This document shows, in pieces, positions 1,628 to 14,962 of a stretch of DNA of 64,000 nt; the first letter of the stretch is position 1, and every line of letters begins with the position of its first letter. Below the pieces are notes generated by a model. It was not told the origin of the DNA. It worked only from the letters and a program-made list of their open reading frames with translations, and did not search any database. This DNA comes from Candidatus Altimarinota bacterium (lineage in GTDB: Bacteria > Patescibacteriota > Gracilibacteria > BD1-5 > UBA6164). The stretch covers positions 1 through 64,000 of the forward strand of contig JAHDHC010000004.1 in assembly GCA_020631485.1 (NCBI GenBank), given 5' to 3'. A program made the position numbers and the translations under genes.

Positions 1628-2446
1628 ATGGATTTACAAATATTTCAAAATATCTATCTCACGCCGACAAGTATTTCAGTGTGGTTAAATATGTTTTTGG
1701 TTCTTGTTTTGTGATGTGTCTTAAAATACGCACATGCATCAAAATTTACAGTTCTATTTGAATTGGGATATGAGAAAATGTATGACTTTTTCAGGGATAT
1801 AATGGGAGACTCTGAAAAACTTTGAGTTGTGACATTTGTGATATCTTTATTTTTTATCATATTGTTTTTCAATATTCAATCAGTGATTTTAGAGTTTATT
1901 GCACCTATATTGTGAATAGATCAAAACGGAAAATTTTATCTTGAGCAACACATACTTCCAGCTTCAAGTGATATAAATTTTAATATCTGAATGGCAATTA
2001 TTTCTATTTTTGTCCTCGTTTGTGTGCAGTTTCAGAGTCTATGAATCACTCATTTTTTTAAAAGCTACTTTCCACTTACAGGAAATGATTATGTAACTGT
2101 AGAAAGATGAGAAAAAAACATATTTCTTTTTATCATATGCTATATCCCAGTAAAAGCTTTTGATATAGCTATATCACTCTTCCTCTGACTCTTAGAGCTT
2201 GTATGACTCGGGGCAAAAATAATTTCTCTTGCCTTTAGGTTATTTGGAAATATGACTTCAGGAGCTGTACTTTTAGGGATGTCTATTGTCGCAATTTCTG
2301 GAATGACACAAGATTGGTTTGGTTTCTCATTTCCAGTAGTTTTACCAGTAATCATTTATATGCAAGAGCTTCTCATCGGCTGAATCCAGGCGCTTGTGTT
2401 TGCTTTGCTTGTTGCGATTTTTATAAAAGTTGCAAGGGTAAGCTAG
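1628..2446 (+). CDS. atpB: ATP synthase Fo subunit a, copy 1
   Basis: 272-residue polytopic membrane protein, the stator channel that carries ions to the c-ring. The diagnostic helix is present: SLAFRLFGNMTSGAVLLG, with the essential Arg between Phe and Leu, followed by a C-terminal helix with QALVFALLVAIF. N-terminal region predicted outside or in the membrane (WLNMFLVLVLG). It is first in the ATP synthase gene run, 62 bases before the four-helix c subunit. A second, clearly different subunit a lies at 5015-5947, so this genome has two stator channels. Confidence 0.9.
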
Positions 2447-2508: not shown

Positions 2509-2958
2509 ATGGAAATTTGATATGCAGCAATATGAGCAGGTCTCACTATAGGGTTAGCAGGGTTAGGTGTAGGATATGGACAGAGCCTTGTTGCTAAAAC
2601 ATCTATAGATATATTGTGAAAAAATCCGAGACTCGCAAGCACTTTGAGAATCTATACTCTTCTTGGTATAGCTCTCGTAGAAACAGCTATTATATATGCA
2701 CTTGTTATTGCTTTTCGCCTCATAGGAGATGATACACTCACAACAAGTCAGATAATGTGAGCAGCTATTGCTATGTGAGCAACTGCATTTATCGCTTGAT
2801 TCTGAGAAGGGAAGATGGTCGCTACGGCACTTGATTCTGTAAATAGAAATCCTGACAATAAATCTCAAGTTTTACAGTTTATGATCCTCTTTCTTGCTCT
2901 TATTGAAACAGTTGCAGTGTATGGATTGATTGTTTCATTTCAGATACTTTCTAAATAA
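2509..2958 (+). CDS. atpE: ATP synthase Fo subunit c, four-helix (double-hairpin) form, copy 1
   Basis: 149 residues, two fused c-type hairpins instead of the usual single one (~75-90 residues). Hairpin 1 has GLGVGYGQ (Q25), loop GKNP and LVETAIIY (E58, T59, Y63). Hairpin 2 has GFGEGK (E100), loop NRNP and LIETVAVY (E133, T134, Y138). The spacing of 33 residues between the helix-1 ligand and the helix-2 carboxylate equals Q32-E65 of the sodium-type Ilyobacter ring. Hairpin 1 therefore matches the Na+ signature Q/E/(S/T)/Y, and hairpin 2 matches the two-carboxylate E/E type described in Fusobacterium. Both keep an ion-carrying Glu. Na+ coupling is inference. Four UGA codons fall in conserved glycines. 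Confidence 0.9.
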
Positions 2959-2967
2959 GAAATTTTT

Positions 2968-3444
2968 ATGGAAAATATAGATATCATGATTGTCCTCGCA
3001 CAGATTGTAAATTTCTTGATACTATTTTTATTGTTCAAAAAATTTCTCGCTGATCCTCTTAATTCTGCTCTTCTCAAGAGAAGGGCTTTGCTTGCAAAAC
3101 TTGCACAAGCAGATGAAGAATATGCAGCTATCCTCGAAAAAGCAAAATCTGAACAAAAAGATATTTTGATCCAGGCTCGTCGTGATGCAGAGAAACTCCT
3201 CAGAGATATGGAAGATCTCTCAAAGATCAAAGGGGACGATATTGTTGCTCTTGCCGAGAAAAGAGCGGATAGTATAATAGCCTCAGGAAAAAGGGAAGTA
3301 GAAAAGGAAAAAATATATATGATGTGAGAGATGAAAGAAAAGATCCTCGAGCTTACACTCAAACTCAACGAAAAAATCCTCGACAAAACTGATCCTAAAA
3401 ACAAAGCTTTCATCCAAAAAGAGCTCAATCTCTTGACTTCGTAG
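2968..3444 (+). CDS. atpF: ATP synthase Fo subunit b, copy 1
   Basis: 158 residues. One N-terminal membrane helix (VLAQIVNFLILFLLFKKFL) followed by a long charged coiled coil (residues ~30-150), the usual layout of the peripheral-stalk b subunit (~155-170 residues). It lies 9 bases after the four-helix c gene and so belongs to the same Fo set (a1-c1-b1). Subunit b dimers link subunit a to F1 through delta. No delta gene follows this copy; the next genes are unknowns. Confidence 0.85.
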
Positions 3445-3491: not shown

Positions 3492-4058
3492 ATGTGTAGT
3501 TATTTTAGTAGTCAAAGGAAACCAGGCCTTCCAAGGAGACCAGACCTTCCAAAACACGAACATTCAGAGGATTTATGATTAAAGAGCTGAGTGATATGAG
3601 CAATATGATTCTTTAAGGATCTTACAAAATGAGCACTTGCTGAAGTATCAGATCTTGCCAGTGTAAAGAGGGAGCAAATAAGAGAGTTGCACAGAGTATT
3701 ATCGTGAGGAGTTCCTGCTCATCTCGAATTTCTCGGGGAGGAACTTTATCATGACCTTGGTATAGTTTTACAAGAATTCCTTGCTCTAACGCATAAAGAA
3801 AAGCATGACAATGTATGACTCCGTAGTTTAGAACTACAAGTAGCTTGCCTCTATCCTCTCAGAGAGAAAGTCTGTGACTTGAGAGACCAAGAAAATCAGA
3901 AGTGAGAAGAAAACAAGGATTTCGAAGTAGATCTATGAGTTTCAATACTGAGAAATACAGATCGTCTGGATCATCTACAATCATTACAGAATAGACTTGA
4001 TGTTCTTATAAGACAACTAGAAGAAAAACGTGATGCAATGTTTTCATGACTCTCTTAA
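3492..4058 (+). CDS. Unknown protein with Pro-rich N-terminus and helical body
   Basis: 188 residues, start ATG at 3492. The first ~20 residues include a repeated proline pattern (RKPGLP, RRPDLP), mirrored by an imperfect DNA repeat. The rest is charged and probably helical, ending in a coiled-coil-like segment (LDHLQSLQNRLDVLIRQLEE). It stands where a delta subunit would be expected after b1, but no delta signature (C-terminal GG..V..D...D.S) is visible. I do not recognise the family. Position alone suggests a link to ATP synthase assembly or to the first Fo set. Confidence 0.6.
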
Positions 4059-4118
4059 AAACATTGACAAAAAAATAAATCACTTTAAAATGCTAGTATT
4101 ATTTACTAGTATTTTTTG

Positions 4119-4718
4119 ATGGCTGTACATTGATCTACATCCGCAATCTTTAATCCAAATTATGGATTTTTTGAAGAAATTGATTTAGATAAGCAGTTTT
4201 CTAATCAACTAACTCCAAGAGGTTATAATTCAGATTTTGTTGTTGACCAAATCGGAAAGCTTTGAAAAATACCCATAACTTTTGATTGAAAGAACTACAA
4301 TTCTACTCCAGAATATTTATGACTCGAAGGTATTCAAATACCGGCAAAAATTTCATGACTTCCAAATAGTCTCTGATACATCAGGTCTGCTGCATATTCT
4401 ATCGCAGAATCTTTTGCGCAATTGCAAAATATGTCTGAAGTTTCAATTACAAATGATCAATTACTTGAGATGATTTTCATAAGAGTAATAGAGCTTTTCC
4501 AAGAAGAAATCCAAAGAATAGAATCATATATGAATCAAGAAAATGTAGTTTTGATGCCTGATCTACTCAAAAAATTTGAAAGTCATTTAAAAGTATTGGA
4601 ATATTATAAAAATGTATTTACAGATACTGTATGATGACTCAAAGCTGAAAATATTCGCCAAGAGGAGAAGTGACAAGTTGAAAGTATTATGGATTGAGAA
4701 CTGAAAAAAGCTGCATAG
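4119..4718 (+). CDS. Unknown protein
   Basis: 199 residues from ATG 4119, reading through nine UGA codons to TAG. The N-terminal half is Gly/Asn/Tyr-rich (YGFFEEIDLD, GYNSDFVVDQ, STPEYLGLEG); the C-terminal half is helical and acidic (LLEMIFIRVIELFQEEI, LLKKFESHLKVLEYYKN). No signal peptide or membrane helix. It is followed by a terminator, so transcription from the first promoter probably ends here and the second Fo set starts its own unit. Family not recognised. Confidence 0.6.
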
Positions 4719-4800: not shown

Positions 4801-5025
4801 ATGCAAAAATTCTTTATCAAGTACACATTATTAATTTTTGTAAATTTACTTGCATTTCTCCTTGTTTGACATATACTCGACGTGCTTTTTTGAGGAGGAG
4901 CAAAGTTTAAGATCACTTTTCTGCTCATTTCAATAGTTCCTTTACTTGTAGTTTGAGGAAAAATGATACAAAAAAGTATAAAAAATTTAGAAGAAATTTC
5001 TGTAGCAAAAGACAATGGAAAATAA
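4801..5025 (+). CDS. Small two-helix membrane protein, AtpI-like by position
   Basis: 74 residues with two membrane helices (LLIFVNLLAFLLVGHILDVL and ITFLLISIVPLLVVGG) and a short charged C-terminus. It overlaps the start of subunit a2 by 11 bases, which implies translational coupling. AtpI/AtpZ-type proteins with this size and topology commonly precede atpB and help ion supply or c-ring assembly. There is no sequence motif strong enough to prove that identity. Confidence 0.65.
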
Positions 5026-5947
5026 ACAAATGATCACTACTCGATTAACCAATGACTGAGATGATACTACATCTACAGAAATTATTGAGGTGCAAAATAT
5101 AGAAGCTGAAACAACTGAAATTCCTACAGAAGAAACTCAAGCTCTACAAGCAAATGAAGTGCAAGCTGAAACTTCACATGGTTGACCGCACATTATGCCG
5201 ATCAAGGCAGATTATGTATCTGGACTTCCAATAACCACAACTTGACTCACAACCACACTTTTTCTCTTTTTCGTCTTTATTTTCTGCTACTGTGCGAGAA
5301 AAATTCTCAAAAATGGTGCATGAAAATTTAGAACATGAGTACTAAGCTTTGTTGATTTTACTTATCAATTTCTAATCGACTCGTTTGATGGGGATAGAGA
5401 GTATGCACGTGCGTATTACCCACTCATAATTTGAGTTTTTGTAGTAATATTTTTTGGAAATCTTTTTTGACTTGTAATTGACTGGGTGTGATTTATAGTA
5501 CCAAGTATTCACTATGTTGCAAGACCGATATTTTCAGATCTTGCCTCGACACTCCCTCTTGCACTTTTGACAGTAGGGTATTCTCTCTACATAGCATCAA
5601 AACTTCATGGTCCTGGAAATGTGTTGAAAGGATACGCGTTTAATTGGACTGGTCAGAGTTTCGCTGAAAAGTGTGTAAATGTCTTTGTTGGATGGTTGCA
5701 TATAATCGGGATACCATCTTCAGTTGCCTCTCTTGCCTTGAGATTGTTCTGAAACATATTCGCATGAGTTGTTCTGATAGCCGTACTTGCATATCTGTGA
5801 GATTTTGCAACGCAAGGACTGTGATGAGTATGAGTACTTATGACTCTTCCATTTTGGTTTTTTGAGTTATTTGTAGCATTTGTTCAAGCTGCAGTTTTTA
5901 CGATGCTGATGATTGCTACTTTTAAGCAGGCACACGAACATCACTAG
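5015..5947 (+). CDS. atpB: ATP synthase Fo subunit a, copy 2
   Basis: 310 residues. It has an unusual ~65-residue acidic Thr/Glu-rich N-terminal extension (IIEVQNIEAETTEIPTEE) before the membrane part. The core motif SLALRLFGNIFAGVVLIAVL with the essential Arg is intact, followed by LPFWFFELFVAFVQAAVF, the typical last helix, and a His-rich tail (HEHH). Its core is closer to the standard bacterial subunit a than copy 1. It is followed by the two-helix c2, b2 and delta genes, then alpha, so it is the set physically linked to F1. Confidence 0.92.
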
Positions 5948-6020
5948 ATAAAGTCTAGGTTTGGGATTTATTTGTTATAGTAAATAAGTTCAAAATTTAT
6001 ATTTTATTATAATGTATACA

Positions 6021-6251
6021 ATGGAAACAGAAGGAATGAAAATGTTAGCAATGGCACTTGCTATTGGACTTGGGGCTTTTGGTCCTGGAATCTGAGTAGG
6101 TCTTATAGGGAAATGAGCACTCGAAGCACTTGGGAGAAATCCTGAAGCTGCAGGAAAGGTTCAAGGACTTGCTATACTAACTATTGCATTTGCGGAAGCT
6201 ATAGCTATCTACGCTCTTGTAATCGCTCTTATTATTGGATTTGCAATCTAG
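6021..6251 (+). CDS. atpE: ATP synthase Fo subunit c, two-helix form, copy 2
   Basis: 76 residues, the normal single hairpin: FGPGIGVGLIGKG in helix 1, loop GRNPEAAG, FAEAIAIYALV in helix 2 with the ion-carrying E59. The residue 33 before E59 is V26, not Gln/Glu, and E59 is followed by Ala, not Ser/Thr. The sodium ligands are therefore missing and proton coupling is likely. This contrasts with copy 1 at 2509-2958. An in-frame ATG at 6012 would add three residues; 6021 is preferred because of usual length and because a TATAAT-like element overlaps 6008-6013. Confidence 0.9.
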
Positions 6252-6351: not shown

Positions 6352-6858
6352 ATGGCAAATACTGCCTCTGATACTTGAAACGCTTTTTTATACGTAGATG
6401 CTCTTATATACCAAGCAATTATTCTTTTAATTGTGTTATATGTTTTAAATAAATTTTTATTCAAACCGTATTTGAAGTATCTCGATGATTACCAAAAAAA
6501 GCAAACAAAGATCGAACAAGACTACAAAAATATAGATAAACTGGTTGCTGACGCGCAAGAACAAAAAGAAGAGATTCTCACTGAAGCAAGAAAAAAATGA
6601 GATGAAATTATCTCAGAAGCTGAAACTATTGCTGCAAAAAAGAAAGCAAGCATTTTGGAAAAAGCTGATAAAGAAGCATGAGATCTCCTCAACTCAACAA
6701 AGGCTGATATAGCAAAAGAGAGAGAATCAATGCTCGGACAAGTAAAATGAAAAATGCTTGATCTTGTAGTGAAACTAAACGGGAAACTTTTTGAAGATGA
6801 GAAAGCTTCAAAAGACTTCTTGAAAAAGAGTCTTGATGATTCAGATTTTTCTAAATAA
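6352..6858 (+). CDS. atpF: ATP synthase Fo subunit b, copy 2
   Basis: 168 residues. One N-terminal membrane helix (YQAIILLIVLYVLNKFLF) then a charged coiled coil rich in Lys/Glu/Ala (AQEQKEEILTEARKKGDEII), as in peripheral-stalk b subunits. Sequence differs strongly from copy 1, so the two are old paralogues, not a recent duplication. It sits between c2 and the delta-like gene, 5 bases before the latter. Confidence 0.88.
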
Positions 6859-6863
6859 AAAAA

Positions 6864-7223
6864 ATGAAATCAATAGATATAAAGAAAATGTCAGCAGATG
6901 AGCTTACTCAGCTACTTAAGGATCTTCGTCTGTATAGAACTCTTGAAAAAGAGCTTTGAGAGAGAGGAAAGGAGTTGTACGATAGAATTCAAAATGGAAA
7001 AAACTCTTTTCAAGTAGAGTACTTTAGCTCTGTATCTCCTGATCTTGCATGGATAAGTGCTGAAAAGATTTATAAAACAGTATTTAAAAAAAATCCAGAA
7101 AAATCTGAAGTTCAGTTCTTGAAAAATGAAAATCTAAAATGAGGAATAAAAGTGTATTTAGATGATCAAGTAGTTGACCTGAGTTTTGATAAAATAGAAA
7201 AATCCTTAAAAGGAAATGCCTAA
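6864..7223 (+). CDS. atpH: ATP synthase subunit delta-like protein, N-terminal domain missing
   Basis: 119 residues against ~180 usual. The C-terminal part has the delta/OSCP pattern: LKGGIKVYLDDQVVDLSFD followed by a short helix. That strand-turn-strand normally contacts subunit b. The first ~60 residues (MSADELTQLLKDLRLYRTLE) do not resemble the six-helix F1-binding domain of delta. It lies immediately before alpha, the usual place of atpH. It is either a shortened delta or a functional replacement; no frameshift or second piece was found. Confidence 0.65.
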
Positions 7224-7310: not shown

Positions 7311-8816
7311 ATGTCAAATGACATATTAAATAACATCATCAGTGAAATCGAGACACAAATCGACTCAACGGACCTCAATCCAGAAGTTGAAAATGTGTGA
7401 GAAGTATTTTACTTGTGAGATGGAGTCGCAAAAGTTTCATGATTGAGAGGGGTTGCCTACAACGAAGTTCTAAACTTTGATTCAGGAGCGAGAGGTGTAG
7501 CACTGAATCTTGAAGAACACTTCGTATGAGTGGTAGTTCTTGAGTGATTCAATCAAATAAAAGAATGAGAAAAAGTAAAAGCTTCAGGAAAAACACTCGA
7601 AGTATGAGTTTGAGAATGACTTATAGGAAGAGTCGTTGATGGGCTTTGAAATCCAGTAGATGGGATGTGAGAGATCAAAGTAACAGAAAAATATCCTGTT
7701 GAGAGAGTTGCATCAGGAGTAATGGATAGAAAATCAGTTCACGAATCTCTTGAAACAGGGATAAAGGCGATTGATGCACTTGTGCCTATTTGAAGAGGAC
7801 AAAGAGAGTTGATTATCTGAGATAGACAAGTGGGGAAGACACAAGTAGCAATCGATACGATTCTTAACCAAAAAGGTCTTGGAGTAACTTGTGTATACGT
7901 CGCAGTATGACAAAAAGAATGAAAAATCGCGAGAATAGTTGAAGAGCTCAAGAAAAGAGGAGCGATGGATTATACGATTATCGTTACAGCAGGTGCATCT
8001 GATCCTGCTGCAAAACAATATCTTGCTCCATATATCGGGTGTTCGATTGCGGAGTATTTTATGTTTAACGGAAAACACTCACTCATCATCTATGATGATC
8101 TCACAAAGCAAGCAACTGCCTACAGAGAAATGTCTCTTCTCCTCAGAAGACCTCCAGGAAGAGAAGCGTATCCATGAGATGTATTTTACCTCCACTCAAG
8201 ACTCCTAGAAAGATCTGCAAAATTGAGCGATGAGCTCGGTGGTGGTTCGATGACAGCACTTCCTATAGTAGAAACTCAAGCAGGTGACGTATCTGCATAT
8301 ATCCCTACAAATGTAATCTCCATTACTGATGGGCAGATTTTCCTAGATTCAGATATCTTTAACTCTGGACAAAAACCAGCGATTCAGGTATGACTTTCTG
8401 TTTCGAGAGTATGAGGGGCAGCGCAGATAAAAGCCATGAAAAAAGTTTCTTGAACATTGAAGCTTGATCTTGCTCAGTACAGAGAACTTGCAGCATTTTC
8501 ACAATTTGCGTCAGATCTTGATGAAGCTACGAAGCTCCAACTTGATAGATGAGAGAGAATGATGGAACTCCTCAAACAAGGAGTTTATGCTCCAGTTCCA
8601 GTTCCAAAACAAGTATGTGTACTCTATGCTGGAGGGAAAGGATATCTTGACCAAGTGCCAGTAGATAAAGTACTCAAGTTTGAAGACAATCTCTATGCTT
8701 CACTTGATGAAGAAAAAACTATACTTGAAAGCATCAGATCAGAAGCTCAAATTACTGATGATACTGAAAAGAAACTGATAAAGCTTATTGAAAAAGTAGC
8801 AGAATTAAATAAATAA
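7311..8816 (+). CDS. atpA: ATP synthase F1 subunit alpha
   Basis: 501 residues, normal length. Beta-barrel N-terminus (GEVFYLGDGVAKVSGL), nucleotide-binding core with GDRQVGKT near residues 170-177, [37 protein letters not shown], and SVSRVGGAAQ with the arginine that reaches the catalytic site in beta. The usual P-loop of alpha is GDRQTGKT; here Thr is replaced by Val, which may alter Mg-nucleotide binding at the non-catalytic site. It is the only alpha gene in the window, so both Fo sets would have to share it. Many UGA codons lie at conserved glycines. Confidence 0.95.
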
Positions 8817-8825
8817 CAATTAAAA

Positions 8826-9062
8826 ATGGTTACAGCAAGCTATGATACACTTCATAGTCAAGCAATGAAGTCTGCAGATGATTACTTTAATAATGCAGTG
8901 AAAACTATTGATGAGTCTTTTGGTGAATGATATGCAAAAGGAAATCCTACTCTCATATATAAATACATGGAGATTGCTTCACGAGAATATACAGAGGCAG
9001 TACAAATGAAATCTATGGAAGAAATGGATGAAAAATATTGAAAAGATTTAAATGAAAAATAA
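8826..9062 (+). CDS. Unknown small protein inserted between alpha and gamma
   Basis: 78 residues (MVTASYDTLHSQAMKSADDY start, EEMDEKYGKDLNEK end), acidic and probably helical, no membrane segment. It starts 9 bases after the alpha stop and is followed by the repeat copy at 9065. Family not recognised; position in the F1 genes suggests cotranscription with them but not necessarily function in the enzyme. Confidence 0.55.
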
Positions 9063-9064
9063 TT

Positions 9065-9140
9065 TTGATATCAATCTAAAAAACGAATTAGAAGTAAGTT
9101 AATGAAAAACAATGGCAAATGCAAAGGAGATCAAGAGAAA
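9065..9140 (+). repeat. Direct repeat, left copy (76 bases)
   Basis: Pairs with 9541-9616; 70 of 76 positions are identical by eye. It contains the 3' end of a DUF2283-type gene (LKNELEVS, stop) and the first 29 bases of an atpG-like start (MANAKEIKRK). The repeat therefore brackets the toxin-antitoxin-like pair. Confidence 0.85.
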
Positions 9141-9381
9141 AGTTATACTTGAGTCTGAGTCTTACAAACTTGTATTTACAAACCATTGAGAGGAGAGAAT
9201 GAAAGAAAGATGAATCTCATTAGATTTAGTTATAGATTCAATAAAAAATTATGATGAAACATACCTAAGAGAAGGGAAACAAGTAGTTGAAAAGAAAAAT
9301 AATTTAGGTACAATACGAACAGTGTTTTATATAAAATCGAATCACATTACATTAATAACTTCTATGATATTATGAAAATAG
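9112..9381 (+). CDS. DUF4258-type toxin-like protein with an atpG-derived N-terminus
   Basis: 89 residues. The core matches the DUF4258 family: FTNHGEERMKERGISLDLV, then a central EKKNNLG turn and a hydrophobic strand (TVFYIKSNHITLIT). The first ten residues (MANAKEIKRK) are the same as the N-terminus of ATP synthase gamma at 9588, and the DNA around them is the left copy of a 76-base repeat. The gene thus appears to use a duplicated gamma start. It overlaps the next gene by 10 bases. DUF4258/DUF2283 pairs are found as toxin-antitoxin-like modules; toxicity is inference. Confidence 0.72.
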
Positions 9382-9578
9382 AATATGATAATATAGCAGA
9401 TGCTATGTATATTCGTTATAGTAGAAATAAAATCATATCTACAAAAGAGTCTGATCAATGAATAGTTGATTACGATAGTAATGGAGATGTTGTTGGTATA
9501 GAAATGTTATGAGTAAAATCTTTATTTGAAAAAAATAACATTGATATCAATCTAAAAAGTGAGTTAGAAGTAAGTTAA
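9372..9578 (+). CDS. DUF2283-type antitoxin-like protein
   Basis: 68 residues matching DUF2283: YDNIADAMYIRYS, GIVDYDSNGDVVGIEML and a short helical tail. It overlaps the DUF4258 gene by 10 bases, the usual coupled toxin-antitoxin arrangement. Its last ~12 codons plus the gap to atpG form the right copy of the direct repeat. The same tail stands alone at 9065, which looks like the end of a second, deleted copy of this gene. Confidence 0.72.
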
Positions 9579-9616
9579 TTAAAAACAATGGCAAACGCAA
9601 AAGAGATCAAGAGAAA
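9541..9616 (+). repeat. Direct repeat, right copy (76 bases)
   Basis: Partner of 9065-9140. It spans the end of the DUF2283 gene, the 9-base gap and the true start of atpG (9588). Confidence 0.85.
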
Positions 9617-10499
9617 GATATGATCGATAAAAAATACTTGAAAGATTACAAAGGCTATGGAGCTTATTTCAACAGTAAAGATGAAAAAAGCTCAGAGTCT
9701 TGCTAATGGGAAAAAGAGCTTTGTAACAGAACTCCTTAAAGTATTTTATAGAATTGAAGATTCTTTTGAATGATCAAAGTTTTTTAAAGATCGTCAGGGT
9801 GATAAAAAGCTTATAATTCTTATTACTTCTAACAAAGGTTTATGTGGAGGGTACAACGTAAACGTGATGAAAGAAGTTAATAAATATATAAAAGAATGAA
9901 GTCTCCAAGAATCGGATCTTGATTTTATTGCACTTGGGAAAAAATGAGCCCAATTTGTAGTAAGAACAGGAAATAACCTTGTTGCTGATTTTTCAAATGA
10001 TTTCACTGATGACGTCAATGATGATTTTATAAAATCTATTTCTGATTTTGTACTCGAGAAATATCTAGGATGAGAATACAATGAGGTAGTGATTTTTTAT
10101 AACTACTTTCAAAATACTATGAGTCAAATCGTAGTAAAAGACTCTTTCCTCCCAATCAAAAAAGAAAATATATTTGAATACTTACTCAAAATCACTGGGA
10201 AGGCGAAAGAAGAGATATTTAATCCATGAGCCTGAGAAGACGAATACGAAATCGAACCATCAGAAGCAGAACTGGTTGATACTGTTATCCCTATGGTTCT
10301 CCGCATGATGATTTATGATAAACTTCTCGAGTCAAAAGCTTCAGAACACTCATCTCGTATGATCGCTATGAAAAACGCAAAAGACAGTTCCAAAAAAATA
10401 GCAGCAAAACTCACGCTTCAGTATAACAAAGCAAGACAAGCAGCTATTACGAGAGAAGTATCTGAGATAGTGTCTTGAGTAGAGTCAATGAAAGACTAA
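9588..10499 (+). CDS. atpG: ATP synthase F1 subunit gamma
   Basis: 303 residues. Canonical N-terminal helix (KRKIGSIKNTGKITKAMELI), the LIILITSNKGLCGGYN strand, and C-terminal helix with ASEHSSRMIAMKNAKDSS and KLTLQYNKARQAAITREV, the rotor shaft inside the alpha/beta ring. Slightly longer than usual (~285), with an acidic insert near residues 205-225 (GAGEDEYEIEPSEAE). The start region is duplicated upstream at 9112. Confidence 0.95.
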
Positions 10500-10559
10500 G
10501 TATTGATTCTCGTAGAAAAAATTGTATTATAGATTTGTTTAGTACCTAATTTTCTTTTT

Positions 10560-10808
10560 ATGCCAGCTGCACTAAAAATTATTTTAAACATATTTTTCTT
10601 CCTGATTTATATAGTAGTGTTTTCACTTCTTGCAGGAATTATATATAACATGATACAGTGAGGAACTGCAGACTTATGAGATGAACAATTCTTTATAAGA
10701 TTTCAAATAATTATGGGATTCATCATTTTGTTTATCACAGTTCTTTTGAAGAAATACTTTTATATTTCCCTTGCTGAAAAAGAAGAGATCATAGTGATAG
10801 AAGATTAA
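10560..10808 (+). CDS. Small two-helix membrane protein
   Basis: 82 residues, with two hydrophobic segments (ILNIFFFLIYIVVFSLLAGI and RFQIIMGFIILFITVLL) and an acidic C-terminus. It lies between gamma and the RNase HI gene. Its topology is like the AtpI-like peptide at 4801, but no motif shows a role. Family not recognised. Confidence 0.55.
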
Positions 10809-11316: not shown

Positions 11317-12711
<1,395 letters not shown>

Positions 12712-13050: not shown

Positions 13051-13479
13051 ATGAAACTACAAGTACTATCATTTACTGGAAAGGTATTTGAATCTGAAGA
13101 TGTTACTTCTGTAACGGTAACAACACGTAATGGTGAGATTACGATTCTCAAGGATCATATGCCACTCGTATCAGCTTTGAAGCCGAGTGTTTTGTATATA
13201 AAATATATGGATGAAAACAATGTCTTACAGAGAGAAGACTATGCGATTGGTTGATGAATAGTTGAGATCTGAAAAGATGGCGTAAAAGTCATAGCAGATA
13301 TGCTTATAGACATAGATGAAGTTGATAGGGAACAGGCAGAGGAAGCCAAACAAAGAGCTATGGATCAGATGGCTGAGCTGAGAAAATCTTGAGAAAAAGT
13401 AGACATGGAGAAGTTCATCGAAGCAGAAGATATGCTTCAAAAATCTATTGCACAGTTGAAACTTCACAAACTCAAATAA
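13051..13479 (+). CDS. atpC: ATP synthase F1 subunit epsilon
   Basis: 142 residues. N-terminal beta-sandwich (LQVLSFTGKVFESEDVTSV, RNGEITILKDHMPLVSALKP) and two C-terminal helices (EQAEEAKQRAMDQMAELRKS). It joins the rotor to the c-ring and can inhibit ATP hydrolysis. It is the last ATP synthase gene and is followed by a terminator. Confidence 0.93.
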
Positions 13480-13573: not shown

Positions 13574-14962
13574 ATGAAATACGGAAAAACATATAAAAAT
13601 TACTCAAAACTTTTTGCATTTTCACTGGTAGAGCTTGTTGTTGTAGCAACAATACTTGCGATACTTTGAACTGTATGATTTGTCTCATATACCTGATATA
13701 TATCGTGAGTAAGAGATAGTAACCGTATCGCACAACTGGAAAAAATCCGTTCAGGTCTTCAGACCTATGCTATCAAATCATCTCTTCCAGAACCTACAGA
13801 CAGTGCTCGAGTGATGAATTGATCTGAACTTTTATGATATCAGTGATACGTCTGACAACAGATACTTGAGAGCATATGACTAGAAAAGTGATGAAAAGAT
13901 CCTGAAAATGATAGTTTCTTTACCTACTATTTACACAAAGGAAAATTGAGCTTTCAGCTCCTCTGATTTTTAGAAGAAGGACTATACTCATCTCATAGAT
14001 GAATATTCCAAGAAACTCTCGCAAATGATTATTTTGATAAATATCCTTTTGTTACGGGGCAGAGTCTCTGAGTACTTACAGGAACTGGAGTATATAAAAA
14101 TATCCCAGCACAAGAGCTTGATACTGTGATTCTCAATGATGATACGATTGATCTATGATCGACAACATCAGAGTTTACATGAATTATCCGTGATGACTTT
14201 ATAGTATCAGGTGATGCGGATGACTTGTCTGTACTTATATCACTCTCAAAGACAAAAGGAAAACTCTGAGTAGATTGTAAGGACTTACTCGTTCGAAATC
14301 CTGGGCTTTTAGGATTAAATGGGGAATACATAATCTCTCCCGATGGAGATTCTACTATTTCTGTAGTATGTGAAATGAGTTACGATGGATGATGATGGAC
14401 CCAATACTCAAAGTATGATAATGGAAATTATCTCCTAAACGATGTATGAGATTTGACGAAAAATTTCAATAAAATGTTTTATGCCTATAAAAGATGAGGA
14501 GATGACATGCATGCATTTGAATTTTTGAGATTTCATACACAACAATGTGGAAATATTTACGGAGATAAAAATGATCTTCGAGTATGAATACGTGACTATA
14601 TAGATCATATAGAAAATGTAAGTTGGGGGAATTGTGGCCGGAATGGAACCTCGGGAGATTCAAATGATATCCAGATAAGAAAAATCACCAATGCAAACTA
14701 TGCTGATGATGCGTGTATAAATGGGACACTTCACAAACAAACTGCCCGGAACTATTCTTGGTGATCTACAAGTACAAGTGATGGGAGAACCGTATGAAGA
14801 CATCAACACCGGATATCAAATACGACTGTTTTGTTTTGACCAACTGGAAACGGTTCAACTCGGTGTGCGGGAGCTAATTCATGACCTTCAGCATCTGAAG
14901 TGTATATATACCTCAGATAAGAGAGGCACTGTGATACACATAAAAATATAGACTTACAGTAA
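13574..14962 (+). CDS. Pilin-like surface protein with C-terminal fibrinogen-like domain
   Basis: 462 residues. N-terminal type IV prepilin signal: short basic leader ending ...LFA, then FSLVELVVVATILAILG, with Glu at mature position 5 (cleavage Ala|Phe). Residues ~40-245 are an unrecognised exposed region. Near residues 250-275 the fibrinogen-like signature begins (GEYIISPDG, VVCEMSYDGGGWTQ), followed by Cys/Trp/Gly-rich sequence to the end. It should be processed by a prepilin peptidase and shown on the surface, membrane-anchored or in a pilus. No pilus assembly gene is in the window. It stands alone between two other strand-opposed gene groups. Confidence 0.8.

Follow-up and report, generated by a model that had tools for sequence, protein, structure and literature searches.

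The first 64,000 nucleotides of contig JAHDHC010000004.1 of a Candidatus Altimarinota bacterium (UBA6164; assembly GCA_020631485.1), hereafter the window, contain an atp operon which raises the question of why one F1 catalytic head should stand beside two membrane (Fo) sectors, one of them carrying a subunit c with two hairpins in a single chain. F-type c is normally a single hairpin, assembled into a ring as identical copies. Our favoured answer, held with moderate confidence, is that the operon specifies a predicted Na+ Fo (cassette 1, a1-cc-b1, cc being the fused c) and a predicted H+ Fo (cassette 2, a2-c-b2) that share one F1. We infer ring size, ion and sharing of F1 from gene content, residues, distribution and phylogeny. 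Genomes and loci of the comparison set are cited by G and L numbers.

We read the window with translation table 25, in which TGA (UGA) encodes glycine. This choice is supported because TGA codons stand mostly opposite Gly in TGA-poor relatives; in alignments of alpha, beta, gamma, cc and c, window TGA codons were opposite Gly in 302 aligned residues, with Ala next at 32. The standard code (table 11) was ruled out for positions 2509-2958 by seven in-frame TGA codons and by Gly conservation, and under table 25 these positions form a single open reading frame (ORF) of 149 amino acids, cc, lying between a and b in the operon. The initial annotation had proposed a four-helix F-type c in one chain at this place, and the proposal is borne out: PF00137 covers both halves of the protein with 102 bits over two stretches against a cut-off of 24, so that the c-type match is not due to chance, TIGR01260 scores 48.1 against a cut-off of 43.95, and the AlphaFold model (predicted local distance difference test, pLDDT, 89.4; predicted template modelling score, pTM, 0.81) consists of four long helices (residues 3-38, 40-73, 79-113 and 115-148) with breaks at two loops. 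The top Foldseek match of this model is Acetobacterium woodii c1 (4bem_J), aligned over its full length (template modelling score 0.84, E 4e-8), which is also the best sequence match in the PDB. By profile, operon position and carboxylates, cc is thus classified as an F-type ATP synthase subunit c.

Beyond what the initial annotation had described, the same operon holds a second a-c-b set, in the order a1-cc-b1, two unassigned ORFs, and u3-a2-c-b2-delta-alpha-gamma-beta-epsilon (Table 1). The window's own genome has two a-c-b sets and one F1: a whole-genome search returned two c genes, both at this locus, and one beta, the remaining match being alpha, and both sets and F1 lie on one 93-kilobase (kb) contig. 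The arrangement extends to the window's family (f1, 48 genomes; f5 denotes the next family). A beta match is present in 45 of the 48 f1 genomes and two complete beta genes in none, the two matches of G107 being fragments on two contigs. Fused and single c occur together in 12 genomes of four genera (G000, G080-G084, G086, G091, G092 and G094-G096), with G093, where b1 sits at a contig end next to the second set, as a 13th probable case; the remainder have fused c only (20), single c only (12) or none seen (3). A full F1 operon has cassette 1 as its only Fo in the 20 fused-only genomes and cassette 2 in the 12 single-only genomes, so either cassette serves as sole Fo in many relatives. The a subunits fall into two separate clades matching the cassettes (support 99/93), which rules out a recent duplication of one Fo. 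The essential Arg of subunit a is present in 54/54 a1 and 26/26 a2 sequences, and the alignment of b1 shows its C-terminal segment to be kept in the two-cassette genomes.

The two hairpins of cc, designated A and B, belong to types that a weakly resolved tree of 65 columns places before the f1/f5 split. By profile typing, A and B hairpins alternate strictly throughout all complete fused c proteins, with the truncated gene of G106 as the exception; in four f5 loci (L041-L044) the order is B-A, a circular permutation as would be expected if the AB unit repeats around a ring. The initial annotation had drawn attention to Q25 in the first hairpin and E100 in the second, with the helix-2 Glu and its Thr and Tyr neighbours identically spaced, and the residues are as it noted: Q25-E58 and E100-E133 are each 33 apart, a Thr directly follows each Glu (T59, T134) and a Tyr stands five residues after it (Y63, Y138). 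Nor are residues at Q25/E100 (position 32) random in relatives, since Gln occurs there in 42/92 A hairpins and 1/92 B hairpins of f1 (Fisher 3e-14, not corrected for kinship), B hairpins having nearly always Glu. These counts rule out a chance pair for f1. Conservation of the pair, which the initial annotation had put up for checking, holds in part: it is common among two-hairpin proteins of f1 (QE in 12/17, with EE 4 and QQ 1), but not universal, those of f5 being mostly EE (EE 14, QE 4, EQ 1, QQ 1, HE 1), so that the pair is not conserved in that family. The suggestion of two kinds of site is correct for the anatomy; in chemical terms it is a possibility only, the difference being modest and drifting. 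Either residue, Gln or Glu, is an accepted Na+ ligand at position 32 (PMC2359735), and the extra Glu of Fusobacterium stays protonated without its proton being transported, only Na+ being moved (PMC3692424); the pair therefore does not imply ions or sites that differ in function. The Q25/E100 difference does mark the A/B pair, but it probably only tunes affinity or pKa, and both sites should bind one and the same ion. Larger A/B asymmetries occur in relatives, where many B hairpins have Val in place of Ser66 and some A hairpins have Arg or Met at position 32. The latter (nine cases of Arg, four of Met) usually affect the penultimate hairpin (L060, L061, L064-L069) and possibly represent sites unable to take an ion.

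Relatives of cc, not covered by the initial annotation, extend the A-B unit considerably. Besides the 2-hairpin form that the window shares with many other members, we found in f1 4-hairpin proteins (G107, G111, G114), a 6-hairpin protein (G117), six plus six hairpins in two genes (G101, G104, G105), ten hairpins in one chain (G102), and 12 hairpins in one frame in six genomes of five genera (G085, G103, G109, G115, G116, G118). The 12-hairpin proteins are ~900 amino acids long under code 25 (L056, L060-L063, and L052 at 7928-10636), and have always Gln in the first hairpin and always Val at position 66 of the final one. A ring of 12 hairpins, made of six cc chains in the window's species, is suggested because 2, 4, 6 and 12 all divide 12 and because 12 hairpins in one chain recur in six genomes. 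An assembly artefact is an unlikely source of these genes given the equal count in six genomes and five genera and the divergence of the G085 units, which are mostly 59-69% alike when compared A-to-A and B-to-B, a few values near 30-39 being coordinate offsets. Collapsed repeats may, on the other hand, account for the 10-hairpin gene of G102 and for the truncated one of G106. AlphaFold modelled a 900-amino-acid, 12-hairpin UBA6164 protein with good overall confidence (pLDDT 82.6, pTM 0.86), and the sensible c-type Foldseek matches of this model were single hairpins or A. woodii c1 only. The R/K-N-P motif of the polar loop is best kept at hairpins 10-11 of the 12-hairpin proteins, whereas most A hairpins from 3 to 9 have lost it (L056, L060-L063), as if the seat of the central stalk were fixed. 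A second multi-hairpin c gene lies upstream of a at L052, L057, L058 and L066 (12, 6, 6 and 4 hairpins). Elsewhere in the phylum, 380 sampled genomes yielded no fused c, only single-hairpin matches. Named records with a fused c include Gracilibacteria 28_42_T64 (CP042461, 4-hairpin) and SR1 RAAC1 (CP006913, 2-hairpin); the ATP-synthase passages of the paper on 28_42_T64 are silent on the fusion, and no report of either the fused c series or the two-cassette arrangement was found in the literature searched.

The ion assignment of the cassettes follows the ligand residues. The Na+ ligand set described for c rings comprises Gln/Glu32, Glu65 and Ser/Thr66 (PMC2359735). Together with Tyr70 it is complete in both cc hairpins, while Gln/Glu32 and Ser/Thr66 are both missing from the ordinary c. 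Across 226 typed hairpins of fused c, position 32 is Q/E apart from R, M, N or H in 15, position 65 is Glu in all 225 hairpins with a letter there, and position 66 is S/T except in part of the B hairpins (f1: 35 Val, 3 Ala). Single c proteins of f1 read I/V-EA in 25/25 cases, and those of f1 and f5 combined have I/V/L32 and A66. Since position 67 departs from the Na+ pattern, our assignment of cassette 1 to Na+ and of cassette 2 to H+ is a prediction only. As to a Na+ source, neither a membrane pyrophosphatase nor an NhaC-type antiporter was found in the family; a PF00999 exchanger was not found in the window's own genome, and its absence does not follow two-cassette status.

Under the shared-F1 reading, cc would form the rotor of an additional, compact Fo, several chains (most likely six) closing a ring of alternating A and B sites that face a1. 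This ring would move Na+; H+ would be moved by the second Fo, in which a ring of ordinary c works with a2 and b2. The two Fo would either alternate on the single F1 or compete for it, by way of b1 or b2, a shared delta and gamma/epsilon, with expression or the gradients setting which Fo holds F1 at a given time. The cell could thereby link ATP to either gradient and, via the ATP pool, swap one for the other. With confidence a little short of even, we go a step further: a Na+ and an H+ Fo on one F1, in a cell where few other gradient-coupled enzymes are known, would amount to an ATP-linked Na+/H+ exchanger. In sister species the Na+ rotor would have turned into one chain of 12 hairpins whose sites are fixed and differ from one another, Arg or Met occupying the ligand position in some; such a ring would have a pattern built into it and might carry fewer ions than it has hairpins. 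Several observations weigh against the shared-F1 reading. Position 67 is non-polar in both cc hairpins (A60, V135), unlike in classic Na+ rings, predicted Na+ rings having there a polar residue that holds a water ligand (PMC2359735, PMC3692424), and a published analysis of a related c, that of Vampirococcus, favoured protons (PMC8080830). A ring of 12 is poorly fitted by G102 with its ten hairpins, by G114 with two 4-hairpin genes and by G085, which has a 2-hairpin gene besides the 12-hairpin one. The window's genome is 93% complete, so that a second F1, though unlikely, may exist.

The non-polar position 67 and the H+ reading of the related c would suit two cassettes that both carry H+ and differ only in their ion/ATP ratio or in the conditions of their expression, the more so as a single-hairpin c can have a ring size unlike that of cc. 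We regard this as unlikely, if still deserving weight, in view of the consistent split in f1 and f5 between fused c with Q/E32 and mostly S/T66 and single c with I/V/L32 and A66. A mixed ring, in which cc and the single-hairpin c enter one rotor and one a and one b are superfluous, appears improbable: the two c genes do share an operon in the window, and the nearest solved relative of cc, A. woodii c1, itself comes from a mixed ring, but a and b are duplicated here alongside c, with the a proteins in separate clades, and A. woodii has one subunit a only. Moreover, other species have F1 with just one or the other cassette, the ligand sets of the two c types differ, and the cassettes are unlinked in G084 and G082. 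Cassette 1 lies ~170 kb away from F1 in G084, which is 99% complete, and is on a different contig in G082, yet both genomes have kept it. This distance, and the long a1 and cc branches of the window's genome, could also indicate that cassette 1 is uncoupled from F1, either as a leftover or as a membrane ion pathway without ATP chemistry. Against such uncoupling, which we think slightly less probable again than a mixed ring, every ion-carrying Glu has been retained, as have the essential Arg of subunit a and the C-terminus of b, and cassette 1 is the sole Fo beside F1 in 20 genomes of the family. Finally, the in-frame ATG at M83 might allow the hairpins to be made as separate proteins through an internal start or processing, the alternative that the initial annotation had named as fatal to its claim, but this can be dismissed since no stop intervenes, dozens of relatives share the short-linker fusion, the majority having another residue at the M83 position, and frames reach up to 12 hairpins.

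Apart from the assigned subunits, u3 is the upstream neighbour of a2 in nearly all loci carrying the second cassette. The two ORFs between the cassettes (3492-4058 and 4116-4718) have no family match and were not found at the same place in relatives. A small ORF between alpha and gamma (9112-9381) begins with the same ten residues as gamma at 9588-9620 (MANAKEIKRK), a partial duplication. Flanking the operon are an ORF matching a fibrinogen-like C-terminal domain (120-833) and another (13574-14920) that resembles it by eye and has a pilin-like start.

Table 1. Subunits encoded by the atp operon of the window.
Feature	Positions	Strand	Evidence and remarks
a1, stator subunit a, first Fo cassette	1628..2446	+	PF00119 99 bits; essential Arg kept (SLAFRLFGN)
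cc, fused two-hairpin c subunit	2509..2958	+	A hairpin Q25/E58/T59/Y63, B hairpin E100/E133/T134/Y138
b1, peripheral stalk subunit b, first cassette	2968..3444	+	PF00430 54.8 bits; C-terminal segment kept
u3, 74-amino-acid membrane protein	4801..5025	+	AtpI-like by position only; no family library match
a2, stator subunit a, second Fo cassette	5015..5947	+	PF00119 113.7 bits; a2 clade
c, ordinary single-hairpin c, predicted H+ type	6012..6251	+	PF00137 61 bits; ligand positions V-F-E-A-I-Y
b2, peripheral stalk subunit b, second cassette	6352..6858	+	PF00430 62 bits
Delta-position subunit	6864..7223	+	Named from position and recurrence in relatives; no library match
Alpha subunit of F1	7311..8816	+	20 TGA codons, mostly opposite Gly
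Gamma subunit of F1	9588..10499	+	Begins MANAKEIKRK
Beta subunit of F1	11317..12711	+	Sole beta found in genome
Epsilon subunit of F1	13051..13479	+	Last in the operon order

The doubling of a hairpin into an A-B unit, and its extension to 4, 6, 10 and 12 hairpins per frame, provide a natural series bearing on what sets the size of a ring and on ways in which rotor symmetry can be broken. The window adds to this a pair of membrane motors, predicted to differ in ion type, next to one catalytic head. If true, this would indicate by what means a reduced cell, probably attached to a host and lacking a known respiratory chain, might live on either gradient, a question raised in earlier work (PMC8080830, PMC6851277).

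Among known systems, A. woodii c1 (4bem chain J) is like cc an F-type subunit with two hairpins per chain and the Na+ ligand set in hairpin 1. In the alignment it has, however, Gln at the Glu65 position of its second hairpin (AQTTGIY) and hence one site per chain, whereas cc keeps Glu (E133), and it shares its ring with single-hairpin c2/c3, whereas the ordinary c of the window has its own a and b. The V-type c of Enterococcus hirae (NtpK, 2bl2) has the same four-helix fold but one carboxylate per two hairpins, against two in cc, and the N-ATPase c model (TIGR03322) scores cc at 58.8 bits against a cut-off of 130.85, in a genome with a single F1. Since a defining feature of each was looked for and found lacking, cc is judged to lie outside these three types. 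The ring of Fusobacterium nucleatum (3zk1, PMC3692424) has the Glu32/Glu65 pair seen as E100 and E133 in hairpin 2 of cc; it is built of single hairpins with identical sites all round and Thr67, whereas in cc the two-carboxylate pair is confined to one of two hairpins, hairpin 1 having Gln, and position 67 of that hairpin is Val. For the 12-hairpin relatives, the closest parallels are as cited in later work. The 13-hairpin K subunit of Methanopyrus kandleri (FEBS Lett 2003 543:47, as cited in PMC2359735) is likewise a predicted whole-rotor chain with a carboxylate per hairpin, but it is A-type and archaeal, whereas the relatives found here are F-type and bacterial with alternating A and B hairpins. 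In the engineered c10 of Bacillus PS3 (Mitome 2004, as described in PMC8809890) F-type hairpins were fused into one active ring, a laboratory construct of identical hairpins of which the 12-hairpin proteins, with their differing hairpins, would be the natural single-chain counterpart. The cc of the window, with two hairpins, does not hold a whole ring in one chain as these relatives may, and in its working it would resemble the rotor of a Na+-type F-ATP synthase.
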